38,112 nt of DNA from a virus, in the IMG/VR virus record IMGVR_UViG_3300020197_002141, positions 1-38,112 of that record, one strand, 5' to 3'. Shown one piece after another: positions 1,848-38,112 of this stretch. Positions within the stretch are counted from its first letter, which is position 1. The number at the start of each line of letters is the position of its first letter. Position numbers and translations under genes: made by a program. The notes beneath the pieces were generated by a model. It worked only from the letters and a program-made list of their open reading frames with translations, was not told where the DNA came from and did no database searches.

Positions 1848-2313
1848 TCTTATTTTCCTCTACGATAGTAGCTTTTATATTAAGAACATTGTTGTTCGCA
1901 TCCAAAAAATTATCCAAGTTTCTAATGCTTATGACGCTCCAATGCGGATCGTCTAAAGGAATGTTTTTCTGTTCTGTATAATAGAAGACTTCTATCATAT
2001 ATCTATAACTCTTTTCCTCAATCTGAGCGTCGGTTAAACCCACCAACATATCCTCGCAAATCTCTTTGCAAAGACGCAACGAATCCTTTTCGGTCGCACA
2101 ACCCAGCTTGCGCAAAACCTGAGTAGCAGCAATCGCCTTGTCTTTCTTGAGCAAATCAATTATATTTTTCTTCATCATGCCGTCTACAAATTCTGCAACG
2201 GCTGCGTACCGAGCCATCACTTGACCTTTCTTGGGCGTATGCATCCTTACATCAAAAAAATATTGCTCAAAATTAGTTTCGTCAATTACTACTTCATTGT
2301 TGGTTTCATTCAT
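1840..2313 (-). CDS. Unknown helical protein downstream of the polymerase half
   Basis: This is a 157-aa protein starting MNETNNEVVI. The ATG at 2313 is chosen over an in-frame ATG at 2331 because AGGA sits about 7 nt upstream. Visible features are FFDVRMHTPKKGQVMARYAAVAEFVDG, a helical block with KKDKAIAATQVLRKLGC, and an aromatic tail (FYYTEQKNIPLDDPHW). It overlaps both the end of the polymerase C-terminal half and the start of the next gene, so all three are probably made from one mRNA. A role as a polymerase accessory factor is conceivable from position only. No known motif is recognised. Confidence 0.78.
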   Translation of the reverse strand: MNETNNEVVIDETNFEQYFFDVRMHTPKKGQVMARYAAVAEFVDGMMKKNIIDLLKKDKAIAATQVLRKLGCATEKDSLRLCKEICEDMLVGLTDAQIEEKSYRYMIEVFYYTEQKNIPLDDPHWSVISIRNLDNFLDANNNVLNIKATIVEENKND

Positions 2314-5089
2314 TTTTTGATCCTGTAACATATTCTTCTAATTGTTCAAAAGTCTCATCCTCTGTTTGATATTTTTCAATTTCCACAACAGGAGGCTTCA
2401 TCAAGTAAACCCGGAAATCATTTTCTTTGTCTGGGTATCTCTTGATCCACGGCTTGCTGCTCCGGTTACTTTCCAAGGTATAAGTGTTATACGGATGTTC
2501 GGGAGCCTGCAATCTCAATCTAACTAAGTTACCGGGCTTCAAAATTCCGCCCCATCTTTCGTAATCATCTTCCCAAATATTAACTGTATTCAATTCGCTC
2601 ATTACATCTTCAATCTTCGTCCGATAGAAGATTGTCTTTGGCGAGCCGTCAGGCTTCTTAGTCTTAGATTCCGCTCTTGTGATAGAAATAATCTTCACTT
2701 CGACCGGACAAATAAAGTCTGGGTTCTGACGCAGGTTTTCAAAGGTGTTATTTGAGTTATGGTCTGGACTCTTTTCCAAATCATGAACCCAAGCAAAACC
2801 GTAATATTTGTTTTCACACTCTACGGGATCACGCAATTCTTCCAACAAAGACTTCTGGATCGGCCAAGAACTTGGATCGAAGTCCACCAATTTTGGAAAT
2901 ACTTGTGGCCCGATATTTTCATTCTTTTCAATTGCCTTTTGACGACGATTCCACAGCTTGCGTAATTCTTTCCAACGATTATATGTTCGAGTAATTGTAC
3001 CCATCCGATAATATCGGATGACTTCCTTTTCGATGATTACACCATCTTCTTCAATATGCTCAACCTCGACAATGAACTCGCCCTCAACAGGATCACGTTT
3101 CCTGTAAGCTCCGAGTTCTTCTGGCCCGCACTGCATCTCTTTAGTTGATTCAATATATTCATCTACATCGTATTTCTTTTTCCAATAATCTGCGTCAAAT
3201 GGTTGCTGTCCGGCCAGTTCACGAAGAGAGATGTTTTCACGGGGGCAAATAGTATGAAAATAATCATCATACTTATTCATAGACTTACCAAAACGCTTGA
3301 TCTTGTCTTCATACTTCTTGGTCTTATCACGGTAATATTCAACGAACTTCCAAAGCACAATCGGGTCTGCATCTTTGAAGCAACGCAAACCAATCAACGG
3401 CTTCAAAACATTGGCATCGGTGCCAAAACGATACAAGAAATCTTCAAATGATGCGTAGGGTTGACTCTCTACAATTCTCTGAGCAGGAGCTTCACCAATG
3501 CCCTTAACGTTGGAGAGGCCAAAGTAAATTTGATCGCCCACCAATTCAAAAGTAATCTTAGACTTGTTAATGTCTAGGCGGGCCAACTCGATGTTGTGAG
3601 CATGAGCCTCGACCTTGTATTCTTTGACCTTATCAGAAGTCTTCTCACAACTCAGAACCGCAGCGTAGAACTCATGCGGATAATGAGCCTTCAAATAAAG
3701 CAAACGTCCAGAGATATAAGTATAAGCCATTGCGTGGCTAAGATTGAAACCGTATTCGGCAAAAGCCTTGATTTGGTCCCAAAGACTCGTAGCTTCCTCG
3801 ATAGAGACGTTCAAATTCTTCACACCATTGCGAATAAACATCTCTTCAAATTTCTTGAAAGCCTCTTCCTTTTTCTTAGAAATAGCTTTACGCACCGCCT
3901 CACAATCCTTCAACGGGATTTCGCCCACCACGTTGAGGATTCTCATAATTTGCTCTTGATAAGTTAAAACCCCGTAAGTCGTCTCCAAAATGGGCTTTAC
4001 GAGCGGGTGCAGGTGAAACTCTTCCTGCCCTTTTTTGCGTTGAATATATCTCTCCTGCATTTTCATGCCGAGAGGACCAGGGCGATAAAGAGCAGTATAA
4101 GCGACCAAATCCTCAAATTGGGTAACGCCGCCAGCACGAACCATCTTTCGTATACCTTCACTGTCAAACTGAAAGATACACTTCAAATCGCCCTGATTTG
4201 CCATCGCTAAGGTTTTGGGATCATTGCGCCACTTGGCTACATCCGTCCAGTCCGGTTGGCCGGGCAAACCGCATATAGAAAGTAAATTATGCCGCTTTTT
4301 AACAAGCTCACAACAACGAGAAATTTGCAGCAAATTAGAAATAACCAGCAAGTCGAACTTAACAAGTCCAACGGGCTGCAAGTCCTGACCGTGTAGACCT
4401 TCTACCCAAGCCGATGCTTGAGGATTATTTTTTCGCTTAATGAGCGGAACTAGATCGTGCAAAGGAATAGACGCAATAATCAAACCACCAGCATGTTGGC
4501 CGGTGCCACGATTGCGATGCAACATTCTCCGAGCAGAATCAGCGACTTCTGGATATTTCTCGCAATATTTCTTCAATTCGGGATACAACTTCATGGCTGC
4601 ATCCCATGTGAGAGCTTTTCCTTCGTCGTCTTTTGCTTCAAGGTTCTTGGTTAATTCTTGAATTTCTTCACGAGGAACGCCGTGAACACGAGCCATATCC
4701 AATAGGGCGTTCTTGATGCCGAACGTGGTGTAATTACCGATATTGCAAACGAAATCTTCGCCAAAGGTTTTGGGTGCCCACTCGTGCTTAAGATAGTCAC
4801 GAGCCTCAGAAAGATAATCTACGTCAATATCAGGATATTCCCCATATTCACAATGGGGTTCATTCTCGATAGTATAATCTTTAGTTATCTTGAGAAGATA
4901 AACAACCAGAAGGTTGTTGACGTTCTTGGCGTATTTCTTGCCAATAAGATCGAGAAAGTAATCCCACTTACCTTTGGCTTCTATCTCGCCAAGCTCCCAG
5001 CGGAGTCTTTTTACATATCTTTGGTCATGTGCTAGACAAAAATCATTCAGGGCTTTTTGACAAAGCCCTGTGAGTTTTTCCATCGACAT
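2306..5089 (-). CDS. dnaE: DNA polymerase III alpha subunit, catalytic C-terminal half
   Basis: This 927-aa protein carries the polymerase catalytic parts of a C-family replicase. PDIDVDY (residues 86-92) supplies the first two palm aspartates and GLVKFDLL (D246) the third. Further family marks are TGQHAGGLIIA, TALYRPGPLG, TYQEQIM, FNLSHAMAYTYISGRLLYLKAHYP, the helix-hairpin-helix-like LSNVKGIGEAPAQ near 520, and a C-terminal OB-fold-like stretch (FICPVEVKIISITRAE). It lacks the PHP domain and the GPGRGS phosphate-binding motif, which are on a separate gene at 13243-14631. Its N-terminus (YVKRLRWELGEIEAKG, YFL) repeats a segment also present near the C-end of that other half. GGGGAGG lies 4 nt upstream of ATG. 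It probably replicates phage DNA as a two-chain polymerase. Confidence 0.93.
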   Translation of the reverse strand: MSMEKLTGLCQKALNDFCLAHDQRYVKRLRWELGEIEAKGKWDYFLDLIGKKYAKNVNNLLVVYLLKITKDYTIENEPHCEYGEYPDIDVDYLSEARDYLKHEWAPKTFGEDFVCNIGNYTTFGIKNALLDMARVHGVPREEIQELTKNLEAKDDEGKALTWDAAMKLYPELKKYCEKYPEVADSARRMLHRNRGTGQHAGGLIIASIPLHDLVPLIKRKNNPQASAWVEGLHGQDLQPVGLVKFDLLVISNLLQISRCCELVKKRHNLLSICGLPGQPDWTDVAKWRNDPKTLAMANQGDLKCIFQFDSEGIRKMVRAGGVTQFEDLVAYTALYRPGPLGMKMQERYIQRKKGQEEFHLHPLVKPILETTYGVLTYQEQIMRILNVVGEIPLKDCEAVRKAISKKKEEAFKKFEEMFIRNGVKNLNVSIEEATSLWDQIKAFAEYGFNLSHAMAYTYISGRLLYLKAHYPHEFYAAVLSCEKTSDKVKEYKVEAHAHNIELARLDINKSKITFELVGDQIYFGLSNVKGIGEAPAQRIVESQPYASFEDFLYRFGTDANVLKPLIGLRCFKDADPIVLWKFVEYYRDKTKKYEDKIKRFGKSMNKYDDYFHTICPRENISLRELAGQQPFDADYWKKKYDVDEYIESTKEMQCGPEELGAYRKRDPVEGEFIVEVEHIEEDGVIIEKEVIRYYRMGTITRTYNRWKELRKLWNRRQKAIEKNENIGPQVFPKLVDFDPSSWPIQKSLLEELRDPVECENKYYGFAWVHDLEKSPDHNSNNTFENLRQNPDFICPVEVKIISITRAESKTKKPDGSPKTIFYRTKIEDVMSELNTVNIWEDDYERWGGILKPGNLVRLRLQAPEHPYNTYTLESNRSSKPWIKRYPDKENDFRVYLMKPPVVEIEKYQTEDETFEQLEEYVTGSKNE

Positions 5090-5644: not shown

Positions 5645-7744
5645 TCAATCTCTGAAACCACGTTTTTTAGGTTTGCCAAAGCCCATAGTTGGTTTAAAAT
5701 CATCTTTGGATGAATCCAATTGCTCTTCTCTCATGCCAGAAAGAGTGTCAATAGCGGATTGATATTCATCGCCCAGAATAACAACTGCAACAAACAATTC
5801 TTTCAAATGGGCCAAGCTGAAATCTTCTGTATCTTGCACCCATTTGTCAATAGGAATATTCAATTCGGCAATGCGTTTTGAACCGATCAAATACTCAAAA
5901 TACATTTTCCGAGATTCGGGATTTGGGTGGTCAATCTTGAATCGCTTATCGAAGCGAGAAGGCCGGTTGATAATACGCTCGCCCAATTCCTCTGGATAAT
6001 TGGTGGTCGCCAAAAAGACGGCCTTTTCGATTTGATTTACACCATCCAAGATATTGAGAACTTCGGACTCATTGTAATGCTTTATGGTGGAATCAATATC
6101 TTCCATCAACACAACAATGGGCGTTTGTGGCTCAATTTCCCGCAAAACTCTCATTCCCTCCGTGAAAAGGGATGGGTGTGTAAACTTAACGACAATACCG
6201 CCCCGATCAACAACGTCTCTCATGATAAGTTGAATCGTGCAGCTTTTGCCGCTATTGTGATGCACCATGTAATCAGAGGTAATATATAAATGATCTCCCG
6301 ATAATGTAAATCCAAAATACTCGCCGTCTCCCAATGGCTCAATATTCCTAATTCCTGTCCGAAGAGGGTCTTTATTGGGAAGTCCCAACAACGCTTTCTT
6401 TCTCGCTAAACGAACCGGCACTTCAGAAATATTCCCAAAAATATTGACCCGCCAATATTCACCCACAAAATTTATCTTCTTAATGCTCTTTTTCACTAGC
6501 TTGATAGTCGCTCCCAATCCCAAACTACGAGCCAATTCAACAATCTGTTCAGCAAGTTCCTGACGCTTTTGAATAATTTCAAAACAACCATTATAACCCT
6601 TCTTTTTGAATTTTTGGTTTGATCGCCAAGTGGCCATAGAGTATCCGCCATCCGTATCTACCAGTCCAGCCAATAAAGCAAGGCGGGACTGACGTGTAGT
6701 TGTCATATATTCTTCTGGAATATGCTTGTGATCCAAAACACCAATAGAATTCATTATCGTTCGAAGAGAATTACCACCCTTCTGTCCATTTCCAACAATA
6801 GTAAATGACGAACAAATCGAATCGGTCTTCTTGTTCTCAGTTACAGATAAACCCAATGAACCAGCATAATTATACAAAAATTCCCTTATTTCTTTATCGG
6901 CAGTCGTAACCTGAGTATTGCCTTCTGTGCCATCCCCTAACCACACTCCCAAAAAATACGGGTCTACTGATAGTTTAGAATTTGTTGAAAATTCCACTCC
7001 TGTTCTGTGCAATTTGAATGATCTCTGAGAGCATTTAGTCAATGACATAAAATCATTCACGCTAATATTCATACTAGGTGGATAACGTCGGTCATCTTGT
7101 CTTGTCCTAACAAGATTAAAAATGTGATGCCCGTTTACAACAAATGATTCCCCTTTCATCGGCGTAACACGAAACATATTGTCTCGCCCTCGCCGCAACT
7201 CCAAAACTTTACGGGGCTTAGAATCAGGCCCCATAAGAAGATCGCCCAAAGCTACATCTTCTACATTTTTCTTCGTGCCATCATACATAACAATTTTGGT
7301 GCCCTTAGCATGACAACCGGGCGGTCCCCAGAGGATAATCCCTCTTTTATAAGTCAATTTGTATTCACGGAAAAGAGATTCACGCTCCCAAAACTTCTGA
7401 ATTTCTGTAACAACTCGTTCAGAATTGGTTTGCGGGAAACGCAGCAACCCCTGTGCAAGCACGGTAATTTTCTGAAAATAAATACCGATGGTATCGGAAT
7501 GCTGAATTTCATAAACGCCGGGCGTAATTTTTTCAGCGGTTTTCGAGGCAGGAATAAATGTCTTGCCATCCGAAGTCGTCCATTGAACCAAACCACGCAA
7601 AATTTGCTCTTCTTTCTTTGGTCCCTGATCCCCATAAACAGCAATTGGTGATTCGCAGGACGCATCAATTCCGTAGAAAGAATGTTTCGCAGGAGCATTT
7701 TTCAGTATATCCCAATCAAGTAACTCTTTGTCGTCAGTATGCAT
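5645..7744 (-). CDS. AAA ATPase precursor interrupted by an intein
   Basis: The 699-aa precursor starts MHTDDKELLD with GGAG 8 nt upstream. The AAA module is cut inside its Walker A loop: GPPG (residues 140-143) is followed by the intein, and SGKS resumes at 498, so splicing restores GPPGSGKS. After it come Walker B VVLMEDIDS, sensor 1 FLATTNYPEEL, and the arginine-rich second half of the AAA core (RIINRPSRFDKRF). The mature protein would be 345 aa. The short C-terminal lid region resembles FtsH/BCS1-type AAA enzymes, but no protease domain follows. It probably remodels a protein or nucleoprotein substrate; the target is unknown. Splicing is needed before ATP can bind. Confidence 0.9.
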   Translation of the reverse strand: MHTDDKELLDWDILKNAPAKHSFYGIDASCESPIAVYGDQGPKKEEQILRGLVQWTTSDGKTFIPASKTAEKITPGVYEIQHSDTIGIYFQKITVLAQGLLRFPQTNSERVVTEIQKFWERESLFREYKLTYKRGIILWGPPGCHAKGTKIVMYDGTKKNVEDVALGDLLMGPDSKPRKVLELRRGRDNMFRVTPMKGESFVVNGHHIFNLVRTRQDDRRYPPSMNISVNDFMSLTKCSQRSFKLHRTGVEFSTNSKLSVDPYFLGVWLGDGTEGNTQVTTADKEIREFLYNYAGSLGLSVTENKKTDSICSSFTIVGNGQKGGNSLRTIMNSIGVLDHKHIPEEYMTTTRQSRLALLAGLVDTDGGYSMATWRSNQKFKKKGYNGCFEIIQKRQELAEQIVELARSLGLGATIKLVKKSIKKINFVGEYWRVNIFGNISEVPVRLARKKALLGLPNKDPLRTGIRNIEPLGDGEYFGFTLSGDHLYITSDYMVHHNSGKSCTIQLIMRDVVDRGGIVVKFTHPSLFTEGMRVLREIEPQTPIVVLMEDIDSTIKHYNESEVLNILDGVNQIEKAVFLATTNYPEELGERIINRPSRFDKRFKIDHPNPESRKMYFEYLIGSKRIAELNIPIDKWVQDTEDFSLAHLKELFVAVVILGDEYQSAIDTLSGMREEQLDSSKDDFKPTMGFGKPKKRGFRD
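6254..7315 (-). other. Intein with LAGLIDADG endonuclease in the ATPase Walker A motif
   Basis: This 354-aa intein begins with Cys1 (CHAKGTKIVM) and ends DYMVHHN, followed by Ser as the +1 nucleophile. The N-terminal splicing block continues with DVALGDLLMG, and the block B TxxH position is represented by VNGHHIFNL. A two-motif LAGLIDADG endonuclease lies in the centre: YFLGVWLGDG (about residues 120-129) and LLAGLVDTDG (214-223). The acidic ends of both motifs are intact, so the endonuclease may be active. Insertion into a nucleotide-binding loop is the classic site choice for inteins because the target is conserved and an empty, unspliced copy would be inactive. Confidence 0.92.
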
Positions 7745-7795
7745 TTTTAGTCTCCATATGTGATAAGTATAGCCGAAATAAAAAGTCAAGCAACC

Positions 7796-8928: not shown

Positions 8929-10255
8929 GAGAACAGTTGAGCCGAAATATGAGGAAATCTACGGAAACCTGTAGATAAATCTTGCCTAAAATCCAGATTT
9001 CGGTCTGAAAAATGAAGGGCATACCCTAAATAAAGGTATGCTATTGGTTGAACGACACTATACGAAAGGCAACTCCGAGATTGCACGACTCTGCTCTCTA
9101 AGCAAGGAGTTGTACAACCGTACCAACTTTCTCATGCGTCAAGCATGGTTCACCAAGCAAAGACTGCCCGACATCAACATCCTCGTAGCTGCCGTCAAGG
9201 ACTTGGAATGCTTCAAGAAACTGCACAATACCAAGACTGCCAAGCAAACTGTCCGCAAGGTCTTGACCGACTGGAGTAACTTCCGCAAAGCACTCACTGC
9301 CTATGGCAAGGACCGCTCTAAGTTCGTGCGATGCCCGAAAGCACCGGGTTACAAGGACAAGATGGCTCAGGTCATCTTCTACAACGAAACCATAAAAGGA
9401 GGACAAAAAGGCATCCCACTTGAGAAATTGACGGCTACCAACAACTGTTTCTCAGTGCCGTATCGAGAAGGATATAAGCAGGTGGTCATCACGCCTAAAG
9501 CCTTTGGGTTCGTGATTGAAGTTCAGTACGAAAGCAATGACAAGAATGAGAAAAAACCGAAGGTCAGCAAAGACAAGGTTTGTACAATAGACATCGGCTT
9601 AAACTGTTTGGCTGCGATAACTTACGACCAGAACCGTCCAATACTGGTCAATGGTCGCATCGTCAAGAGTTTTAACCAATGGTACAACAAACGTCCCTGC
9701 AAAAAGCGGTTGAGAAAAAGGTACTTTCGGTTGGAGAACTACTTCCATCATGTGTCTAAACTGATCGTTGATCTGTGCCTAAAACACGGCATTGGCAGGA
9801 TAATTGTGGGCAAGAATCATGGCTGGAAGTCAGGTATCAACTTGGGCAAGAAGACTAACCAAGCGTTCTGCTTCGTACCGACATACTTGCTGTTGGAGAA
9901 GATCAAGTACAAGGCAGCGATTGCTGGAATAGACGTGACCTTCACGGAGGAAGCGTACACCAGCAAGGCGAGTTTCTACGACCGTGACCCATTGCCGAAG
10001 TACGGGGAAACTGTACCTGAGTTTAGTGGTCGCAGGAAGCATCGTGGGTTGTACGTCAGCAAGGATGGTTTCGCTGTCAATGCTGACGTGAACGGAAGCC
10101 TAAACATTGGACGAAAAGTAATCCCTGAGTTCTACGGAATAGGGGATAGGAGCCTTGTCGCAAGGCCAGTAGTAATCAATCCATTGAAAGCCTAACGGTG
10201 AAGGTTAGGTGGTTGATTGCTCAAACCAGATTTCCGTAGGTTTTCTGGAACGGTT
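8929..10255 (+). mobile_element. IS200/IS605-type TnpB-only element
   Basis: This is a 1327-bp insert carrying only tnpB. Its ends are set by exact reading-frame restoration of the interrupted nuclease. The left flank reads AAGGGTT and the right end CGGTT, sharing GGTT, with no target duplication, as expected for IS605-family elements. The subterminal regions can fold: near the left end ATCTACGGAAACCTGTAGAT and CAGATTTCGGTCTG, and near the right end CCAGA and TCTGG around a 13-nt loop (10226-10248). No TnpA is present in the window, so mobility would need one in trans. Base composition is visibly richer in G and C than the flanks, a sign of recent arrival. Confidence 0.88.
9038..10195 (+). 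CDS. tnpB: TnpB RNA-guided nuclease (IS605 OrfB)
   Basis: The 385-aa protein has the typical start MLLVERHYTKGN, a helical N-terminal half, and a C-terminal RuvC-like domain. RuvC-I is CTIDIGLNCLAAIT (D185). The region usually giving the second catalytic acid reads IIVGKNHGWK, without the canonical Glu. The following EEAYTSKASFYD and NADVNGSLNIGRK match a TnpB subfamily in which the acid is displaced, and the last motif supplies the final Asp. The zinc-finger cysteines of many TnpBs are absent, also usual in that subfamily. Known TnpBs cut DNA using an omega RNA made from the element's right end. The start codon and AAAGG site lie in a hairpin with 7-bp arms GCATACC and GGTATGC (9019-9041). 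Confidence 0.9.
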   Translation: MLLVERHYTKGNSEIARLCSLSKELYNRTNFLMRQAWFTKQRLPDINILVAAVKDLECFKKLHNTKTAKQTVRKVLTDWSNFRKALTAYGKDRSKFVRCPKAPGYKDKMAQVIFYNETIKGGQKGIPLEKLTATNNCFSVPYREGYKQVVITPKAFGFVIEVQYESNDKNEKKPKVSKDKVCTIDIGLNCLAAITYDQNRPILVNGRIVKSFNQWYNKRPCKKRLRKRYFRLENYFHHVSKLIVDLCLKHGIGRIIVGKNHGWKSGINLGKKTNQAFCFVPTYLLLEKIKYKAAIAGIDVTFTEEAYTSKASFYDRDPLPKYGETVPEFSGRRKHRGLYVSKDGFAVNADVNGSLNIGRKVIPEFYGIGDRSLVARPVVINPLKA

Positions 10256-12340: not shown

Positions 12341-13246
12341 ATGATTAGTTTCAGTTTCGCAGAATGGCTTCAAATAATAGAGGCTGATAAAACAAAATCC
12401 GGGTTGGCCGGGTCAGACTTTACTGGATTATCTCTGGCAGACCGTATGGCCCAAGGCAGAGATATTGGTGAACCATTTATAAAGCGTCAACTGGCCATGC
12501 ACGGGATTAAAATTTCTGGTGTGCCCGCCAGAATGGATAAGACCCAAAAAGTTGACGGCATGTGGAACAACGACCCTATTCAAATTAAGCTCAGACGTAG
12601 CGGCATAGCTGGCAGAAATGATATTTCTTTTGAAGTATGCAGAAACCACGATAATATCTTCAAGTTATCCGACCAGCTTAGAAATGTAGATAAGCAGGGC
12701 AGAGATTACAAAGGGCAGGTAAAACACTACTTTGTAATGAACCAAGCAGAAACGGAAATTTATCACGTTCTTGCCAGTGCCATTAAAGCAGCAGCAAATG
12801 CCGCTATTGCGGAACTAGATGCTGATAGAAGAATGCAAGGTTATTTAACACGAGCATTTCCCGCAAGCAACGGAACCGAACTAAGACCGACTAGAGATAA
12901 AGACCCAGACAGTTTCACTCCATTCAAAGTCATGGCCTTTATCCCTGTCGATAGTGTTGTTCAAAAGGCTTATCCAATTCAGGATGAACAAACCGTACCA
13001 GCTATTCAGTCCGGCGCTCCTAACAATCCCCTTAGATATATAGCCCCGCCTGCCACAAAGAGCGATATGGAAATCGCTGCCGAGAAAGCACTTAGAACAG
13101 GACATGGCGAAATCACCATCAAGAGCAGCAACCCGAAGAATGTCGATAAAAAGATGAAAGAAATTCGGATGTTTGCTAACACGAATAAACTAAAGGTACA
13201 AGACAACGGGGATGGAACTGTAACCTTAATCAAATGGCCTATCTAA
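12341..13246 (+). CDS. Putative PD-(D/E)xK-type nuclease with N-terminal leader
   Basis: This 301-aa protein starts right after the previous stop (TAAATG). VDGMWNNDPIQIKLRRSG resembles the core of PD-(D/E)xK nucleases, with Asp in VDG, Q-x-K in IQIK, and a following strand DISFEVCRNHD. The first residues (MISFSFAEWLQIIE) carry the recurrent F-x-E-W-L leader, so it may be packaged with the acidic protein encoded upstream. The C-terminal 60 residues look like a separate small alpha/beta domain (GEITIKSSNPKNVDKKMKEI, then VQDNGDGTVTLIKWPI), reminiscent of single-stranded nucleic-acid-binding folds. The nuclease call rests on a short motif only. It converges with the polymerase N-half gene, overlapping by 4 nt. 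Confidence 0.7.
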   Translation: MISFSFAEWLQIIEADKTKSGLAGSDFTGLSLADRMAQGRDIGEPFIKRQLAMHGIKISGVPARMDKTQKVDGMWNNDPIQIKLRRSGIAGRNDISFEVCRNHDNIFKLSDQLRNVDKQGRDYKGQVKHYFVMNQAETEIYHVLASAIKAAANAAIAELDADRRMQGYLTRAFPASNGTELRPTRDKDPDSFTPFKVMAFIPVDSVVQKAYPIQDEQTVPAIQSGAPNNPLRYIAPPATKSDMEIAAEKALRTGHGEITIKSSNPKNVDKKMKEIRMFANTNKLKVQDNGDGTVTLIKWPI

Positions 13247-14631
13247 GCTACAAAAATCTCTTCTGGTGAAAGCGGGTCCATATTCTTTGGAAACTCTAAA
13301 ATAATGCTCCGTCCACCACGAGCCTCGCTCATAAACCGACTAAACAACAGACCTTCGTAAATTGGGTCAACATCTGTAATGCCCAAACAATAACAAGTCA
13401 AAGCACCAACGGCACTTCCACGACCCGGACCTACAGCCTGTGTGCCATCGCCACCCAACACATCACGACACCAACGGCGTGCTTCGTCCGTCATCATCTT
13501 CTGAATAAGGAAGTAGGTGCTGAACCCTTTGCGAGTAATCAAACTCAACTCTTCTTTGAGACGATTAACATATTCTCGATTTTGAGGAAGATTGCGTGCC
13601 TTGAAACCACGCATGACTTCTTCCTTCAACTTATCATCGGAATCTGGGAAAATAGGCAGCTTCAAAGAACGATCAAGTTGTACGCCCTTAGCACGCTCAC
13701 AAATCTTAACAGTATTTCTTTTAGCTTCACAGAACAACTCATAAGGAATAATATCCTTATAATCCTTGAACCATTTATCATTGATTTCTTCCTCAGATTT
13801 CATCCAAAGGTTTGCATCTTGCAACTCGAAAAAGTCGCTGATGCCTTCCTCTTTCATTTTGCGTTCAATATCAACAATGGTGTTCTTCGTTTGCACCATC
13901 AACATGAGACGCTGATATTTGCTATCTTCTTGTTTGCAATAATGACAATCATTGGTAATGATAAGCGGGAGTTTATATCGGTCATGAGCCTTCACAATAA
14001 AAGCGTCGTAAGGCTTTTGTTTATTGAAATCCAAGACCATCAATTCCAAAAAATAATGATCTTTGCCAAACATCTCGATGTATCGCTCAATCATAGCGAA
14101 TCCAGCTTCTTCGCCGCCTTTATCAAAGGCTTTGCCTACTTCGCTGTTGTAGCAACAAGACGTGAAAAATAAACCTTCTTTATACTTTAGAAGCTGTTCG
14201 TAATTGACTCTGGGCTTACGATAAAATCCCTTTGTCCAACCCCAAGAAGTAAGACGAACAAGGTTCTTATACCCTGTTTCGTTATAAGCGATAGCGAGTA
14301 AATGCGCACCAGATTGTTTGGCTTCGGCTGCGTCTGCTTCACTGAGGTCCAAAAGATATTTCTGCATCTCTTGCAATGAAGATATTGCAGGCTGCATTCG
14401 ATTGACGTAAAGTTCACATGCGAAAATGGGGGAGAGAGTGTCCTTCCCATGTTTATCACATATTTTTTCGCAAGCCTTAATTTGCCGTGGGACTGCGCCC
14501 AACATGCCGTGATCGCTAATCGTGAGGAATTTCTGATTGATTAGCGGGGCACGGGTGGCATATTCTTCCACCATGCCATACCCATCAAGAACACTGAAAT
14601 CCGTGTAGCTAATGAAGGTGGAGATGTTCAA
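13243..14631 (-). CDS. dnaE: DNA polymerase III alpha subunit, PHP/N-terminal half
   Basis: This 462-aa protein matches the N-terminal half of a C-family replicase. It has a PHP start FSVLDGYGMVEEYA, then LTISDHGMLGAVPRQI, GFYRKPRVNYEQLLKY, PLIITNDCHYCKQED, and the phosphate-binding GPGRGSAVGA (about 401-410) followed by LGITDVDP. It stops soon after; where the palm aspartates should be it reads RSIILEF. The catalytic acids are on the gene at 2306-5089. The only start giving this whole frame is TTG at 14631, and in this frame the metal-binding HxH at the beginning of PHP is replaced by ISY. A stronger start (ATG at 14653, GAGGAGG 6 nt upstream) opens another frame that reads EHLHLH and then stops; see findings. 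PHP metal binding is doubtful. Confidence 0.9.
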   Translation of the reverse strand: MNISTFISYTDFSVLDGYGMVEEYATRAPLINQKFLTISDHGMLGAVPRQIKACEKICDKHGKDTLSPIFACELYVNRMQPAISSLQEMQKYLLDLSEADAAEAKQSGAHLLAIAYNETGYKNLVRLTSWGWTKGFYRKPRVNYEQLLKYKEGLFFTSCCYNSEVGKAFDKGGEEAGFAMIERYIEMFGKDHYFLELMVLDFNKQKPYDAFIVKAHDRYKLPLIITNDCHYCKQEDSKYQRLMLMVQTKNTIVDIERKMKEEGISDFFELQDANLWMKSEEEINDKWFKDYKDIIPYELFCEAKRNTVKICERAKGVQLDRSLKLPIFPDSDDKLKEEVMRGFKARNLPQNREYVNRLKEELSLITRKGFSTYFLIQKMMTDEARRWCRDVLGGDGTQAVGPGRGSAVGALTCYCLGITDVDPIYEGLLFSRFMSEARGGRSIILEFPKNMDPLSPEEIFVA

Positions 14632-17484: not shown

Positions 17485-19083
17485 TCACCACATATTTTCC
17501 ATATGTTGTTTTCGTGTCACCCGCCGCACTTTAGTCGGATCGCTACTGAAACACTCGTAAATTATCTCGGTGCCATCTTCGTCGGCAGTCGCCAAGAATA
17601 CGTCATTACCCCAAACAAATCGAAGACCAGTGAGTACGTCCTTAACATAAGGATCATAAAGCTCACGACCATCAATATTGTGTTGAAGCAAGAAATATCC
17701 CTTGCCTCTATAGTTTGGCTCAACCAATTTAATATCTGGCAAGCCGCCATTCAAATGGCGTCTCATCAAAAGTTTTTTAGTTTTTTCGTAATCACGAGAT
17801 TCGATTCTTGTTTCCCCATTGTTAAATTTTTTCCACTCAAAGTATTCTTGTTCACGGCAGAAATCTTCAGTGAAATATTCATGAATAAGAGTCAAATCAT
17901 CGTAATATTTTCGAACTTCAAATACCTTTTCTTTACCAAGTCCAACACCTGTGTCCCAATTTTCACGCTTACGATAATCTCGACATTCTTCCCATTCCGT
18001 ACCAAATCGTCCTTTATTCCAACGGTCACGAATATCTAACAATAAATAAAAGCCTAATTTATATGGGTTCATAGAATACTTGCCGCCTAACACGCCCATT
18101 TTATGTTCAGCATATTCGATGATTCCACAATCATGCGTTTTTTGACCAAGCCCCACATAACCTTGCTCGGCCATGATTGTATAGTCAGTCAACGAGGCCC
18201 ACCCTTCGTTGAGGGTCTTAGTTTGACGCTGCGGGAAGAAATATAAAGATTCATCATAAATCATAGACAATATATCTTGTTGCCACGGTTTGAGCGGTGC
18301 ATTATCCCGCAAGAATCCAAAAATATCTTTCGTTGGTTCCAAGAAGAGATTCAATTCGTCGGCCAACTCTTTTTTCTTGGCTCGATCATTTTCTTTCTTT
18401 TTGAATTCACCAGTATTGATGTACGGGTCCATGTATAGTCGCTCACGATCTACCTTTAAGCGACGTGGGTGACGATACACTCTAGTATCAGTAATAATTG
18501 GGTTTTTAATTGTCTTTTGGTGCCAAGCTTTTGCGCCATCAATTAAGGTGTCAATTCTAAGCAAATAATCCAAAAACTCTGTGACACGTTCTTTGCCCCA
18601 GCGTGCCATATACTTGCGAATACGGGTTCCGTGATTCGCCATATTATTCAGCATATTTGTATCAGTGGCAGAGAAGTGGATATTATTCTTAAAAAAATCA
18701 TTATGTCCTGTAGCATGAGCAACAACTGTTAGATCGTCCAACAAGCTATTGGAAGCCAATAACCATTGGTAGCAAGGATTGGTATTAATTACCATCTCAT
18801 AAATTTTATGCATGCCATATTCATATCCTCTTTGAAGTTCTTCATATTCCATCCCGAAGGACCAGTGTGGATAACGAACAGGAAAGCCGCCATAAGCGGC
18901 AATTTCTGAAATTTCATCATAGGTAAGCTTTTGAATTACAGTTGGATAAAAATCCAAACCATAATCTCGACATGCCTTGAGAATTATTTGAGCGTTTTCG
19001 GCCAACTCTTTAGATAGGCTTACACCGGGTACAGTATTATCACCCAACAGTATAGAAGAGCCGTGAAAAAATTTGCTCGTCAT
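17485..19083 (-). CDS. spoVR: SpoVR/YcgB family protein
   Basis: The 532-aa protein closely follows the SpoVR family pattern. It has YGLDFYPTVIQKLTYDEISE, IAAYGGFPVRYPHWSFGMEY, MHKIYEMVINTNPCYQWLLA, LTVVAHATGHNDFFKNNIHF, and near the C-end FLLQHNIDGRELYDPYVKDV. Length agrees with bacterial members (about 500 aa). Hosts encode it with the PrkA kinase and the von Willebrand-domain protein YeaH, where the trio is linked to stress and stationary-phase adaptation; the biochemical role of SpoVR is not settled. GGAG lies 7 nt before ATG. It starts 3 nt after the yeaH-like gene, so all three were probably acquired as a unit. Confidence 0.93.
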   Translation of the reverse strand: MTSKFFHGSSILLGDNTVPGVSLSKELAENAQIILKACRDYGLDFYPTVIQKLTYDEISEIAAYGGFPVRYPHWSFGMEYEELQRGYEYGMHKIYEMVINTNPCYQWLLASNSLLDDLTVVAHATGHNDFFKNNIHFSATDTNMLNNMANHGTRIRKYMARWGKERVTEFLDYLLRIDTLIDGAKAWHQKTIKNPIITDTRVYRHPRRLKVDRERLYMDPYINTGEFKKKENDRAKKKELADELNLFLEPTKDIFGFLRDNAPLKPWQQDILSMIYDESLYFFPQRQTKTLNEGWASLTDYTIMAEQGYVGLGQKTHDCGIIEYAEHKMGVLGGKYSMNPYKLGFYLLLDIRDRWNKGRFGTEWEECRDYRKRENWDTGVGLGKEKVFEVRKYYDDLTLIHEYFTEDFCREQEYFEWKKFNNGETRIESRDYEKTKKLLMRRHLNGGLPDIKLVEPNYRGKGYFLLQHNIDGRELYDPYVKDVLTGLRFVWGNDVFLATADEDGTEIIYECFSSDPTKVRRVTRKQHMENMW

Positions 19084-27180: not shown

Positions 27181-27630
27181 TGGGTTTAATCTATATAGTG
27201 GCTCGCATACTGCCAGTGGGTTTCATGCCGGGACTGGCTCGCAGGGAAGTCTTGGGTTTAACGTATCTATTGGCTCGCATGTATTCCGTGGATTTCATTT
27301 CGACCTTGGCTCGCAAACAAGCTGTGGATTTCATTTCCGGGGTGGCTCGCACATACGTGATGGGTTACAAGAATCGGATGGCTCGCACTTACCTGTTGGA
27401 TTTCACCGGCGCTCTGGCTCGCATCTCCACATTGGGTTTCACGCAGTATCTGGCTCGCATTTTGTCATTGGGTTTAACGTATCTATTGGCTCGCAGGCTT
27501 CGGATGGGTTTCAGCTTTCCTTTGGCTCGCACGAATACTATGGATTTCATTCGGGCGTTGGCTCGCACATTCGTGATGGGTTACAAGCATCGGATGGCTC
27601 GCACTTACCTGTTGGATTACACGCACCCGG
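27181..27630 (-). repeat. TIGR array: 25 alternating 9-nt repeats, 24 spacers of 9 nt
   Basis: The array is strictly periodic: 9-nt repeat, 9-nt spacer, with no length errors. Two repeat types alternate on the minus strand. TGCGAGCCA occurs 12 times without change. The other occurs 13 times as TGAAACCCA, TGAAATCCA, TTAAACCCA, TGTAACCCA or TGTAATCCA. The unit is therefore 36 nt with two different 9-nt spacers. Spacers in transcript order: ACAGGTAAG, TCCGATGCT, TCACGAATG, ACGCCCGAA, TAGTATTCG, AAGGAAAGC, TCCGAAGCC, ATAGATACG, ATGACAAAA, GATACTGCG, ATGTGGAGA, GAGCGCCGG, ACAGGTAAG, TCCGATTCT, TCACGTATG, CCCCGGAAA, CAGCTTGTT, AGGTCGAAA, CGGAATACA, ATAGATACG, AGACTTCCC, GTCCCGGCA, CTGGCAGTA, CTATATAGA. 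It follows tasR on the same strand, its first repeat and spacer boundary overlapping the tasR stop. By analogy with known TIGR systems it would be cut into 36-nt dual-spacer guides. Confidence 0.9.
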
Positions 27631-28603
27631 TTGGCTTATTCCAATTGGGCACTTCAATATAATCACAGTGACCACCATGTTCAAGAACCCAAGGCTGGGA
27701 AACCGACAATCCAGCTTGAGTTCTGGCGACAACCCAATAATGTTGCAAAAATATTTTAGCGGTCTTGCGAATTGCTCGGTTGTGTGCATGTCCAAGTGAA
27801 ATACCACGAGAAACTTGCAATGCTTTTTCTTTGTCGTAAATATCCCGATAGATTGGTGTTCTATGTTTAATAAACATATCTACAACATTGTACATCAACG
27901 AACGAATTTTGCCCGCCCAATTATTTGGCTGGCCTTTAGTTTTCTTTTGAACCTTACCATCATAAACACCATATCCTGAATAAGCCCATAATGCAGAAAC
28001 AGTATTGAATCGCTCAATATCACCAATTAAAGCGACCAGCCCACCGGCAATAGCAGGTCCGATGCCTTTGATCTTCAACAACCATTCATTATAAATAGGC
28101 TCTTCCTTGAGTTTTGTTTCAACGGCCTTTAATAGCTGTTTTTCGGCTTTTTCAAAAGTCTTAAAAAATTCACCCAATACAGGGTTATCTTCTTCGATAA
28201 ATAATCTGTTGTTTGTGCGAATGCGAACTTCTTGAAAATCTTTGAAAGTAGCATAAGCACAAGATAGAACTGAGGGAAGCCTAAACGGACGGAACAACTC
28301 CGGGCGGGTTTTCGACAGCGCCCAAATTACTCGCACATCATTTTCGTCAGTTTTTTCAAAGTCAGGCTTGTGATTTTTCTGCACTTGCTCTCGTGCTTTG
28401 GCGGTATCATTAGGCTTACAACGAAGAACTTTCGCACCAACATCCAAAAACTTTTTTGCGTATTTGGCGGGCATGTTCTCCGTCCAAATCACAATTTCAG
28501 GAGAAGGATCGGGCAAAGTTTTCGTAATCTTTTTGCCATCAGTCACAGCCAACTTGTCTGTTTTGTGTGACCAATCCACAGCATAATTTTTAACGTCGTC
28601 CAT
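27617..28603 (-). CDS. tasR: TasR: RuvC-Nop-like RNA-guided nuclease of a TIGR-Tas system
   Basis: The 328-aa protein starts MDDVKNYAVDWSHKTDKLAV; ATG at 28603 has GGAGG 5 nt upstream, whereas an upstream TTG would overlap that site. The N-terminal domain is RuvC/DEDD-like: D10 in YAVDWS, E42 in IVIWTENMP, and D86 and D89 in KTDENDVRVIWAL. A helical middle leads to the C-terminal domain with IKGIGPAIAGGLVALIGDIE and AYSGYGVYDGKVQKK, related to IS110 transposases and Nop proteins. The serine-bearing ISK-x-GN segment of IS110 enzymes is replaced by KGQPNNWAGKIRSLMY, which argues for nuclease rather than transposase. The array directly downstream supports TasR. Known TasR proteins cut DNA matched by both spacers of a guide RNA. 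TATAAATA precedes the gene. Confidence 0.87.
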   Translation of the reverse strand: MDDVKNYAVDWSHKTDKLAVTDGKKITKTLPDPSPEIVIWTENMPAKYAKKFLDVGAKVLRCKPNDTAKAREQVQKNHKPDFEKTDENDVRVIWALSKTRPELFRPFRLPSVLSCAYATFKDFQEVRIRTNNRLFIEEDNPVLGEFFKTFEKAEKQLLKAVETKLKEEPIYNEWLLKIKGIGPAIAGGLVALIGDIERFNTVSALWAYSGYGVYDGKVQKKTKGQPNNWAGKIRSLMYNVVDMFIKHRTPIYRDIYDKEKALQVSRGISLGHAHNRAIRKTAKIFLQHYWVVARTQAGLSVSQPWVLEHGGHCDYIEVPNWNKPTGCV

Positions 28604-28632
28604 AAATCCTCCAAGCAAAATATCGTTTTGAT

Positions 28633-34491: not shown

Positions 34492-35219
34492 TGGCTTGCA
34501 ATCCTCCATATTGCAACGGCACAGGTTCTTATTGTGGATGCAATTGTAACTGCTGCCCGCCAGATGGATGCTGCACCAAAGTGACTTTAACTTTTGAGTG
34601 CGGAACGTCGTACTCCATTTGGGAAGGGGGCAACCCAAATGAAGGTTGCGAGTGCAACCCCGAAGTATACCTAGGCGATCTCGGCATGTGGGCCGGATTA
34701 AAATTGGCAGAAGGACATATAGGAGTCCCATTCCCCAATTTTAATTCCGAAAACGAGGGCGACGACGAATTTGTCTGGTCCCTTCAGGGATGCTCCATAC
34801 CTTGTGAAACAGTAAAAGTACATGTAACCACATCGGGATGTTGCCTTCAATTATCTGGGGATGATAATGACTGGCTCAAAACCATCGTCGCTGTAGGCGG
34901 GGGCACTGTGACTGCGGTTTTCGACGACGGCTCGACACAAGGTACCCCCTACACACCTTGTGGCGTACAAATGACTTTTGTAAATGGAGCACAAGGTAGT
35001 TATGTTGTCGCAAACCCTGGCATTTGCGAAGACATAGACGTTGACCTTTCACCGGGCATGGCCTGCTGTGTTTGCTGTCTCGTAAAAACAGAATGTGCAA
35101 ATGCTCTATTCGCTCCAATTATTTTTAGACAAAAAAATATTCAAGCCGGTACAAATAAAAACTATCTCAACAAAAAAAATTTGTTGGAAAGGGTTCGTAA
35201 CTTACGCAGACGTAAGTGA
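34491..35219 (+). CDS. Cys-rich beta protein, possibly a virion surface protein
   Basis: This 242-aa protein starts MACNPPYCNGTGSYCGCNCN, a Cys/Gly/Asn-rich head (NCCPPDGCCTKVTLTFECG) followed by Cys-poor beta-type sequence (IVAVGGGTVTAVFDDGSTQG) and a second Cys cluster (GMACCVCCLVKTECANALF). The tail is basic (NYLNKKNLLERVRNLRRRK). There is no signal peptide. Repetitive beta content and Asn/Gly turns resemble decoration or fibre proteins, but no family is recognised. GAGG lies about 10 nt before ATG. It converges with the helicase gene, overlapping by 18 nt. Confidence 0.65.
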   Translation: MACNPPYCNGTGSYCGCNCNCCPPDGCCTKVTLTFECGTSYSIWEGGNPNEGCECNPEVYLGDLGMWAGLKLAEGHIGVPFPNFNSENEGDDEFVWSLQGCSIPCETVKVHVTTSGCCLQLSGDDNDWLKTIVAVGGGTVTAVFDDGSTQGTPYTPCGVQMTFVNGAQGSYVVANPGICEDIDVDLSPGMACCVCCLVKTECANALFAPIIFRQKNIQAGTNKNYLNKKNLLERVRNLRRRK

Positions 35220-38112
35220 CAATTTATTTGCTTCATCCAACATTGCCTTAATAACATCTTGTTTCAGATTGAGCAGCTTGCGAAGTTTTTCTTCTGAAAC
35301 ATCTGCGAACTCTTCCGCAGACTTAATTCCATAATCAAACAACTTCTTTGCCCGAACCTTTCCGATATTCGGAATGCGACAAAGATTGACCAAATATGCC
35401 GGTACACCGTTACGGATTCTATCTTCAAGCGTATAAAGATAGCCTGATTGTTCCCATTTGCCACTCATTGAATCAAGTGCCAATAACACCTGCGAAAGTC
35501 TGGGATAATCAAACTGGAAATTTCTTTGTATGGCTGCCAGATTCGCACTGTTATTACCCGATAACAAATTGAAGTAACAGTAGCCAGCTTTGATGACGGG
35601 ATCGGGATAGGTGTAATTGACTCCCGAAAGATTTCTGACCCTGTTGGCGAACAAGCTCATTTCTTCTTTCTCGGCTCTCGATACAATATTTGAACGATTC
35701 GTATCTGTATTTGCCAAAGCCATTGCCAAGAAATAGTCATTGTCTTGCTGATTATTCGCAAACAATCGCCAGAAGTTATTTCTCAAATCGGCAACGTCGA
35801 ATGGCGAAAAATAAAACATGCTGGCAATCATGCCAACAGACGTAATTTTCCAAGTGTCATCTTCAAACTTGAGACAACCCTTATCCTTCAACAATTCCAA
35901 AGTATCATCTACCACACGTTCATGCAAATTTTTGTCTTGGAAGTAAGCCAACGACCTTTCATACCAGCGGTGAACATCGTCATTGGTCTTGATATATCCG
36001 TGATGAATTTCGCTGACCAAGTGGAAGGCCAATACCTTGTGATGTTCTCCTTCCCTCTCCAATAGCTGCGATTCAATCTTTTGTGGTTTCTGTAGTTTCT
36101 TTCGCCACAATTCTTCTTGGGATTCGGGGACCAGAATATACGCATCGCCAGCCGGATCAATTCCAAGACGGCCAGAGCGTCCAACCATTTGAGTGATGTT
36201 GTATGTTTCGACTTCTTGAATACCTCTGTGAACACCAAGAATAATCACCCGGCGAGCAGGAAGGTTCAGCCCCCAAGCTAATGTTGGAGTGGCCACAATG
36301 ACTCTCAATTTGGGATCAGTACGGAAACTACGTTCGAGATTAACTCGACTTTCTTTGTCTAAATCAGCATTATGAAATTCTGCTTTGATCCCGGCCCCTC
36401 GCAGGGAAGTCTTCATCATCTCGCCGGTACGCTTAGTATGTGCAAATACAAGGAACTTATCATCTGAATACCAGTCGCCAATAATTTCCAATGCCTTCCC
36501 AACTTTGTTTTTTTCGATTTGATCGTATCGTCTGGGCGAGTCATCGTATATTTCGTAGTGAATATTCAATGGCACTGGACGATATTCAGAATTTAGAACA
36601 TAGGTTTGCTTCTTGGTCAAAGAATATGAAACCCACTCTGCAATTTGATCGACGTTCGGCATAGTAGCTGAGAGCAAAACGATCCTTGCTTTGGGATTGA
36701 TTTCCGTAAACTTCATCAATCCAACTTCCAAGTGATCGCCACGACCCGGCACCGTCAAAAGGTGGCAATTGTGAACCAAAACACCATCAGCAAAAAAATT
36801 GTTGTGATCTTCAATTTCTAAATCACAACACCATGATTCCTCTGAATCCAAATCCTCGTTCGTTCGTACATTTTGTCCCATTTGTGACGACATTCCTTGT
36901 TCTTGCACAAAATAACATGACGTGGCATATGAATATCTCGACGATTCGCAAGAAATTTCTGACCACACATTGAACAGAATATTTGCTCCATCTTCGGCAA
37001 CACTTTGTACTCCATACTTGGAATCACAAAATGTCGAATTAAATTTTGAAATTTGTCTCTCCCCTCCGCTGAGAATCGAATTTGCCAATATTTTCTCGTC
37101 AAATATGGATTGGATGGCACTTTCCACCTTTTTTGAAGCCAATCCGACAACATCTTCACTTCCATTCGAGAAAATCCTTCTGTGTGTATTGACATTTGAC
37201 TTGAACCTTGACTCCCATCGTCCATGTACCATACTGCCAACGCAATCGGATCGTTGATCTCTTCTAGCCAACGAGAGTTCACCGTCTTCTTCCCATTTGG
37301 GTAACATAAAGCATGAATTTTCAATATCTCTTCTGTCGAAAGAGTATTGAATCGGCAAACCTCTTTGCCGTAACCTCCGTTTGGCTTTATTTTGGGCGGC
37401 GTGCCAACCAGTCTCTTCAACTCGTTGTACTTCCACTCTACAAAAGCCCTTTGGACAGACGATTGTTGAATCCTTAATCTCGCCGATTTTCCGTGGGGTA
37501 GCCGAGAGATTGATCCGTCTCCTAGCAACGTACCCAAAATCACCTGTCTCTCTCTTTGAGTTAGTTCTTCGCACATATAAAATATCACCAAACTTTATGT
37601 TTTTAGAAGGAACATAACCACGACCTTCACACCAAACCAAATGATTGTGTGTCACAGAAATGTTTCCACCTTCATAATATATAGTGCGCCACCTTCTTTT
37701 TAAGAGTTTTTTCTGTCTTGCTACAATTTTTTTGTATTCGACCAACCCTGAGTTATGATTAAATGAAGCTACTTTCACATCAAGATTTTGGTCAATTATT
37801 TCCCCAATTGAAATTAGACCTTTATCTGTATCAATGAGAGCAGATGGAGGCAAGCACTCGTCAACCACCAAAGTTCCAACATCGAGCAGCCAGTTGTTTT
37901 GTTCAGATTTGAAATTTCGGGAGCGGTGATTAAGCATTTCAGAAGTCATGATAATCATATCAGCTTCTGAAAGTTCTTTGGATCGCTCTTTAGTGAGTCG
38001 ATAATCGCCCGTACAAATAGAAATCTTCAAGTCTTTGAAGTGATATTGAAGATCAGTCCATTGGTCAATTTTCTCTTGAGCCAAGGCACGGAGCGGAGCG
38101 AGAAACATTCCC
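35202..38112 (-). CDS. Hel308/Ski2-like superfamily 2 helicase precursor with intein (5' end outside window)
   Basis: The visible part is about 969 residues; the N-terminus with Walker A lies beyond the right edge. Motif Ia is FLAPLRALAQEK. Walker B is LVVDE-C...HN-CHLL, so excision of the intein restores VVDECHLL. Motif III is LLSATMPN. Motifs V and VI are TPTLAWGLNLPARRVII and QMVGRSGRLG. A winged-helix-like region follows (ERVVDDTLELLKDKGCLKF), and the C-terminal helix-hairpin-helix is LCRIPNIGKVRAKKLFDYGI. This order is that of Hel308/Brr2-type 3'-5' helicases acting on stalled forks or recombination intermediates. It probably serves phage replication or repair. Splicing is required for ATPase activity because the intein interrupts the DECH box. 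Confidence 0.92.
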   Translation of the reverse strand, partial: GMFLAPLRALAQEKIDQWTDLQYHFKDLKISICTGDYRLTKERSKELSEADMIIMTSEMLNHRSRNFKSEQNNWLLDVGTLVVDECLPPSALIDTDKGLISIGEIIDQNLDVKVASFNHNSGLVEYKKIVARQKKLLKRRWRTIYYEGGNISVTHNHLVWCEGRGYVPSKNIKFGDILYVRRTNSKRETGDFGYVARRRINLSATPRKIGEIKDSTIVCPKGFCRVEVQRVEETGWHAAQNKAKRRLRQRGLPIQYSFDRRDIENSCFMLPKWEEDGELSLARRDQRSDCVGSMVHGRWESRFKSNVNTHRRIFSNGSEDVVGLASKKVESAIQSIFDEKILANSILSGGERQISKFNSTFCDSKYGVQSVAEDGANILFNVWSEISCESSRYSYATSCYFVQEQGMSSQMGQNVRTNEDLDSEESWCCDLEIEDHNNFFADGVLVHNCHLLTVPGRGDHLEVGLMKFTEINPKARIVLLSATMPNVDQIAEWVSYSLTKKQTYVLNSEYRPVPLNIHYEIYDDSPRRYDQIEKNKVGKALEIIGDWYSDDKFLVFAHTKRTGEMMKTSLRGAGIKAEFHNADLDKESRVNLERSFRTDPKLRVIVATPTLAWGLNLPARRVIILGVHRGIQEVETYNITQMVGRSGRLGIDPAGDAYILVPESQEELWRKKLQKPQKIESQLLEREGEHHKVLAFHLVSEIHHGYIKTNDDVHRWYERSLAYFQDKNLHERVVDDTLELLKDKGCLKFEDDTWKITSVGMIASMFYFSPFDVADLRNNFWRLFANNQQDNDYFLAMALANTDTNRSNIVSRAEKEEMSLFANRVRNLSGVNYTYPDPVIKAGYCYFNLLSGNNSANLAAIQRNFQFDYPRLSQVLLALDSMSGKWEQSGYLYTLEDRIRNGVPAYLVNLCRIPNIGKVRAKKLFDYGIKSAEEFADVSEEKLRKLLNLKQDVIKAMLDEANKLSLTSA
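36768..37856 (-). other. Intein in the helicase DECH box
   Basis: This 363-aa intein starts CLPPSALIDTDKGLISIGEI and ends DHNNFFADGVLVHN with Cys at +1. Block B is GGNISVTHNHLVWC. The C-terminal blocks are CCDLEIEDHNNFFADG and VLVHN. Splicing blocks A and B (residues 1-95) and F and G (341-363) are normal. The central 245 residues show no endonuclease motif in this frame. They are the alternative-frame reading of a LAGLIDADG gene encoded at 36818-37576, yet contain no stop codon. Confidence 0.9.
36818..37576 (-). CDS. LAGLIDADG homing endonuclease overprinted on the helicase intein
   Basis: This 252-aa frame lies one base out of phase with the intein and starts MCEELTQRER, with GGTGAT 7 nt upstream. 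LAGLIDADG motifs are VILGTLLGDGS (residues 12-22) and IALAVWYMDDGS (111-122); the acids are intact. The spacing and the SMSIHTEGFSRMEVKMLSDW block match intron- and intein-type endonucleases. A C-terminal zinc-ribbon-like end follows (FCSMCGQKF, then CKNKECRHKW). The stop codon (TAG at 36818) lies just as the intein C-terminal splicing block begins in the other frame. It is probably translated independently from the same mRNA and would promote homing of the intein. Confidence 0.85.
   Translation of the reverse strand: MCEELTQRERQVILGTLLGDGSISRLPHGKSARLRIQQSSVQRAFVEWKYNELKRLVGTPPKIKPNGGYGKEVCRFNTLSTEEILKIHALCYPNGKKTVNSRWLEEINDPIALAVWYMDDGSQGSSQMSIHTEGFSRMEVKMLSDWLQKRWKVPSNPYLTRKYWQIRFSAEGRDKFQNLIRHFVIPSMEYKVLPKMEQIFCSMCGQKFLANRRDIHMPRHVILCKNKECRHKWDKMYERTRIWIQRNHGVVI

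Follow-up and report, generated by a model that had tools for sequence, protein, structure and literature searches.

The last minus-strand gene of the window, by which we mean the whole 38,112-base virus record IMGVR_UViG_3300020197_002141 (W; L-numbers denote related loci), encodes a Hel308/Ski2-like SF2 DNA helicase whose 5' end is cut by the contig end. The helicase frame has 969 codons and forms a single ORF that crosses an entire insertion before it stops at 35202. The features of the locus are as follows:

35202..38111, minus strand: host gene, Hel308/Ski2-like SF2 DNA helicase, with DEAD and Helicase_C matches and a helix-hairpin-helix end
36768..37856, minus strand: intein of 363 aa in the helicase frame, with Cys1, block B TxxH, penultimate His, terminal Asn and +1 Cys
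37575..37856, minus strand: N-terminal Hint half, 94 aa, blocks A and B, pLDDT 61-89; only its last two bases are overprinted
37584..37589, minus strand: putative Shine-Dalgarno sequence GGTGAT, which the intein Gly-Asp codons form 7 nt ahead of the endonuclease ATG; anti-SD pairing -8.8 kcal/mol
37574..37576, minus strand: endonuclease ATG, overlapping the intein Tyr-Val codons (tATGtg), at a position common to L003 and L004
36818..37576, minus strand: LAGLIDADG homing endonuclease gene, 252 aa, ATG to TAG, frame +1 of the helicase
36819..37574, minus strand: intein-frame reading of the overlap, 252 stop-free codons, pLDDT about 25, little amino-acid constraint, apparently a passive linker
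36768..36818, minus strand: C-terminal Hint segment, 17 aa, end of block F and block G, HN/C, pLDDT 80-88

The insertion interrupts helicase motif II (the DExH box, DE/CH), reading VVDE/C...VLVHN/CHLLTV with FFADGVLVHN as its C-terminal residues, at a place where relatives have VDEAHLLTV (L107) or VDESHLLTV (L083). The initial annotation had placed an intein at 36768-37856 with its splicing blocks in the helicase frame, and our boundaries are identical to the base. C1, T69, H72, the HN pair and the +1 Cys (Ser in L003) are aligned in six inteins, and by these sequence blocks the insertion is a class 1 intein, i.e. a Hint protein-splicing element, which would be expected to splice. The Pfam model PF14890 (Intein_splicing) matches the W host frame with E = 1.8e-6 and 28.3 bits, below the Pfam cut-off of 35.8; L003, L004 and L005 are also below the cut-off, and L006, L119, L010 and Xanthomonas phage FoX3 are above it. 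Intein-free alleles were found in L083 and L112 (helicase), in L304 (terminase) and in phage FoX2; L304, with its longer match, had been a candidate carrier of the insertion and turned out to be an intein-free terminase. The helicases of L107 (4779..7706) and L109 contain a different intein in a later motif (TLAWG/C..HN/CNLPARR), with an in-frame LAGLIDADG_3 endonuclease.

The DNA of the intein also encodes a complete endonuclease one base out of register. Its ORF comprises 257 aa (36818..37591, minus strand), or 252 aa when counted from the ATG at 37576, and its stop codon occupies 36818-36820. The protein matches PF03161 (LAGLIDADG_2) with E = 1e-32 and contains two LAGLIDADG motifs (LLGDGS and WYMDDGS) and a Cys4 zinc-ribbon C-terminus; the acidic motif residues D20 and D119-D120 are kept across 32 endonuclease sequences. 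Its predicted structure (pLDDT 94) has I-SceI as top Foldseek match (5a0m, E = 2e-15, TM 0.70-0.78). With this family match and modelled fold, it is an I-SceI-type member of the LAGLIDADG_2 family, which would be expected to cleave the intein-free site. In a canonical bifunctional intein the endonuclease lies in the frame of the splicing blocks; here, it is offset by +1 (W, L003-L006 and L119) or +2 (FoX3). The earlier description of a LAGLIDADG endonuclease complete with start, both motifs, zinc end and stop, one base out of phase, is thus borne out.

Both reading frames are kept open

The initial annotation had considered a helicase frame that stays open for about 250 codons across the endonuclease very unlikely to arise by chance in AT-rich DNA. 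The composition was overstated, since the overlap region has about 42% G+C and is only moderately AT-rich, but the improbability itself stands. Holding the endonuclease protein fixed, we re-drew its synonymous codons and counted the stops generated in the host frame: on average 16.8-19.6 were expected for W, with a minimum of 6-7 in 4000 draws, versus 0 observed. The third frame contains 15 real stops. A T-ending endonuclease codon that precedes a codon starting with AA, AG or GA creates a host-frame stop. Such T-ending codons are absent from all six elements in which they were counted (0/71 in W, and 0/66, 0/81, 0/96, 0/107 and 0/114), while 50-79 T-ending codons are present elsewhere in each of these genes. 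In W, 41 of the 71 codons could end in T and none do; elsewhere in the gene T is used in 64 of 118 T-permitting codons.

The same genome also contains a conventional intein with an in-frame endonuclease (6254..7315, minus strand); in that intein, the two remaining frames contain 19 and 29 stops. Among 80 viral and 80 bacterial or archaeal relatives of the endonuclease, a second frame that is mostly open over the match was found outside the overprinted group only in a few G+C-rich (>50%) sequences. The codon re-draw, the third-frame stops, the in-frame intein of the same genome and the other family members together rule out a chance open frame. However, because a long open second frame does arise by chance in a few G+C-rich relatives (e.g. 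L216, 62% G+C), an open frame by itself says little in G+C-rich DNA. At this locus, both frames are held open by selection.

The two frames evolve differently. The endonucleases of W and L003 share 70% identity, although only 0.31 of their fourfold sites are identical (0.33 in the extein), and endonuclease identity within groups is 54-70%; ordinary purifying selection acts on the endonuclease frame. The intein-frame reading of the overlap, on the other hand, is 37% identical between W and L003 and 31-46% identical among all pairs of relatives, and its variation tracks the codon positions of the endonuclease. AlphaFold predicts residues 1-97 and 339-363 of the intein with confidence, and these ends match the RecA, NrdJ and DnaX mini-inteins; residues 98-338 have a pLDDT near 25. 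The prediction alignments differ in depth (6 intein versus 32 endonuclease sequences), so that the contrast in fold is supportive rather than conclusive. Given the low identity, the endonuclease-driven variation and the predicted lack of fold, the intein frame across the endonuclease looks like a passive, stop-free linker with little constraint beyond the absence of stops. Its identity slightly exceeds that of a saturated stop-avoiding null, so weak constraint may exist, even if "no stops" is still the dominant rule; some constraint on the linker is also possible in view of the fourfold sites of L003/L004 and L006/L119, which are more alike than the extein or the null. Thus, the proposed dual coding stands in that the overprint is real and both frames are kept open. 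It is not fully supported in the sense of two functional proteins across the overlap: the comparison of synonymous and non-synonymous change that had been suggested for both frames gives purifying selection in the endonuclease frame and little constraint in the intein frame. An expected hydrophilic effect of the +1 offset on the linker was only weakly borne out (ILMFVW content 0.25-0.26, versus 0.25-0.33 in exteins).

Recurrence of the layout

Five further metagenomic elements have the same layout, with an offset of +1 and 0 host-frame stops where 14-23 are expected. Two of them interrupt helicases, with endonucleases 70% (L003) and 55% (L004) identical to that of W; the other three (L005, L006 and L119) are located in the Walker B motif of a terminase large subunit, with endonucleases of 40-45% identity. 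A further terminase element, present as one sequence on two contigs (L223/L224), has kept its endonuclease and has 25 stops in the third frame; the sole TGA of this otherwise intact overprinted element lies in the intein frame, at L224:3359-3361 (the same in L223). It may reflect decay, read-through or error, as otherwise the terminase would be truncated.

An isolate provides the remaining case. The helicase CDS of Xanthomonas phage FoX3 holds a 314-aa intein (DE/C..HN/CHHLG) with a LAGLIDADG_2 endonuclease in frame +2, i.e. the other alternative frame from that used in W. Its host frame contains 0 stops versus 3.5-4.6 expected (P at most 0.017, whichever codon usage is applied), and its third frame 11. 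The FoX3 helicase as query matches FoX1, FoX2, FoX5, Murka and M29 at 97-99% in two pieces that cover 58% of it, the pattern that absence of the intein would produce, and the empty site of FoX2, read directly, is equal to the joined flanks of FoX3 at 119/120 nt. The FoX3 element and the FoX2 empty site therefore indicate that the arrangement is real, recently gained or lost, and present in both alternative frames. In the public record of FoX3 (L226, MT161383.1 / NC_055837.1; 26902..29268) the endonuclease is not annotated, and the intein-bearing helicase appears as "putative DNA helicase" or, in the RefSeq copy, as "head morphogenesis".

In total there are eight distinct overprinted elements (W, L003, L004, L005, L006, L119, L223/L224 and FoX3); scans with the L004 and FoX3 endonucleases yielded no additional overprinted members. 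Stop codons in the intein frame of homologues, which had been named beforehand as evidence against maintained dual coding, occur in only one of the eight, as the single TGA of L223/L224. By its recurrence in divergent sequences, the layout is a real, repeated design.

Start signals, proposed model and origin

In the helicase trio (W, L003 and L004), the Gly-Asp codons of the intein provide the candidate Shine-Dalgarno sequences GGTGAT, GAGGGAGAT and GGAGAC, respectively, with predicted anti-SD pairing of -8.8, -9.1 and -6.4 kcal/mol; equally low values occur at only 1/36, 1/47 and 3/56 of the other out-of-frame ATGs of the gene. In W, L003, L004, L005 and L006 a stop closes the endonuclease frame 6-27 nt upstream of the used start or first ATG. 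The terminase elements have starts at equivalent positions (ATG in L005, ATG in L006 and TTG in L224), but no convincing Shine-Dalgarno sequence was found in this group, and in L119 the conserved position lacks a start codon. Good support for internal initiation is thus limited to the helicase group; for the terminases it is an assumption.

From the anatomy, conservation, stop avoidance, selection pattern, empty sites and fold predictions computed here, we infer a mobile intein whose splicing and homing are uncoupled by reading frame, a reading to which we assign a probability of roughly 0.8. The helicase mRNA would be translated straight through, and the helicase would be spliced by a Hint domain assembled from the 94 N-terminal and 17 C-terminal intein residues, which an unstructured, stop-free linker of about 250 residues separates. 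Ribosomes would also initiate at the internal +1-frame ATG, using the Shine-Dalgarno sequence supplied by the Gly-Asp codons, and the product would be a separate, monomeric I-SceI-like endonuclease. In a co-infecting phage with an intein-free helicase allele, this enzyme would cut at the DExH-box codons, and repair would copy intein and endonuclease together into the cut allele. Selection would then maintain the sequence of the endonuclease, while the intein frame would be held to little beyond the absence of stops. We regard as evenly balanced the broader proposal that these elements constitute a distinct class of intein, of more than one origin, in which an independently translated endonuclease is overprinted on a passive linker and takes its start signals from conserved Hint codons; splicing and mobility would then be physically inseparable and yet evolve and be expressed independently of each other.

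Programmed +1 ribosomal frameshifting from the N-terminal half, which would yield an intein-endonuclease fusion and hence a near-normal intein, would account for the single offset common to all +1 cases, and the gaps in the start signals of the terminase group, including L119, are in its favor. We nevertheless consider it improbable, because the upstream stops close the endonuclease frame in five elements, start codons are present at equivalent positions in L005, L006 and L224, the Shine-Dalgarno sites of the helicase trio are strong, and FoX3 would require the opposite shift. Displacement of an in-frame endonuclease by two sequencing or assembly errors is conceivable for a metagenome assembly, given that conventional inteins carry their endonuclease in frame. 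However, the homologues and the isolate FoX3 rule this out for practical purposes: the same offset is found in six divergent metagenomic elements and another one in FoX3, 0 host-frame stops occur over 252-380 codons, and a start codon and Shine-Dalgarno sequence are present. The relatives uphold the earlier view that both frames are maintained, and they show that no indel artefact is involved. The endonuclease ORFs of introns are frequently out of frame, yet a group I intron removed at the RNA level, with an incidentally open host frame, is just as improbable as such errors, since the intein splicing blocks are complete and Rfam gave no match to a conserved catalytic RNA core up to E = 1 in 36500..38112, nor any in four related loci.

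As to the origin of the overprinted elements, we used a quick version of a 142-row tree and a finished 38-row tree, whose supported branches force three label changes. In the latter, the helicase trio groups with the free-standing endonuclease L007 (99/94), and the four terminase elements are a clade of their own (100/99). FoX3, whose long row makes its placement less sure, joins L010 (98/88), a conventional in-frame intein likewise at a DExH-box site. These groupings and the different frame of FoX3 favor at least two origins, and more than one origin of the overprinted elements is likely.

Two routes to the arrangement seem equally plausible to us, each falling a little short of an even chance. 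On the one hand, an in-frame intein endonuclease may have been displaced by an indel at each junction, after which stops were purged. The closest tree relative of FoX3 would suit such a displacement, being an in-frame intein at the helicase site DE/C..N/CH whose endonuclease begins at the same point after the GD motif. The association of the helicase trio with L007 speaks against it, and so does the fact that a frame change would immediately expose many host-frame stops in A+T-rich genes. On the other hand, a free-standing endonuclease gene may have entered a mini-intein whose host frame was then cleared of stops. Such an invasion agrees with the sister position of L007, with the zinc-finger-like ends that also occur in the non-intein L014, and with a fold nearest to I-SceI; however, the association with L007 depends on one sequence, and the boundary after the Hint GD motif is identical to that of the in-frame L010.

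Comparison with known systems and other features of the phage

Inteins are usually described as a single polypeptide that both splices and homes, while here the two functions share the same DNA in different frames. Conventional LAGLIDADG inteins, such as those of L010 and of W at 6254..7315, likewise have a Hint domain, an active-site insertion and an endonuclease between blocks B and F, but in them the endonuclease shares the host frame and leaves with the excised intein, instead of being a separate overprinted gene. I-SceI and the free-standing or intron-encoded PF03161 endonucleases are the family and best structural match, but the W endonuclease is not intron-borne: it lies inside an intein, out of frame, and has a C-terminal zinc ribbon. 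The nearest published relative is the ShiLan element, an out-of-frame HNH endonuclease in an actinophage DNA methylase, for which its authors found no intein or intron splicing domain (PMC11855218). Both insertions are open in the host frame, encode a homing endonuclease in another frame and have a patchy spread in related phages; however, the ShiLan enzyme is of the HNH type and has no detectable ribosome-binding site (PMC11855218), whereas the W element encodes a LAGLIDADG I-SceI-type enzyme, has a complete Hint domain and, as in the rest of the helicase group, a putative Shine-Dalgarno sequence. That paper cites Gosselin et al. 2025 (actinobacteriophage inteins, "non-canonical architecture", bioRxiv 10.1101/2025.01.02.630785) and Gorbalenya 1998 (Non-canonical inteins) for overlapping reading frames; going by these citations, both may describe out-of-frame intein endonucleases, and hence the same idea. 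Apart from these two works, the literature covered here contained no description of an intein whose LAGLIDADG endonuclease lies out of frame.

Judging from these elements, a linker of 250-380 residues with almost any sequence may be compatible with a Hint domain. The elements are also a clear natural example of overlapping genes where hardly anything but freedom from stops is required of one frame. Endonucleases of this kind are overlooked by annotation, as that of FoX3 illustrates, and the predicted homing is open to a direct test with FoX3 and its intein-free sibling FoX2.

Several other features of the phage are worth recording. The in-frame intein at 6254..7315 (Hom_end_hint and Hom_end) lies in the ORF 5645..7789 and interrupts the Walker A motif of an AAA+ ATPase (GPPG/C..HHN/SGKS), so the same phage carries one ordinary and one overprinted intein. 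DNA polymerase III alpha is apparently split into two minus-strand ORFs about 8 kb apart (13243..14631 and 2306..5089), with the break inside PF07733 and no intein half seen at either end. The contig further encodes a TnpB/OrfB-like protein (9038..10195, plus strand), an IS110-type transposase-like protein (27617..28618, minus strand) and a SpoVR-family protein with a SpoVR-associated C-terminal domain (17485..19083, minus strand).
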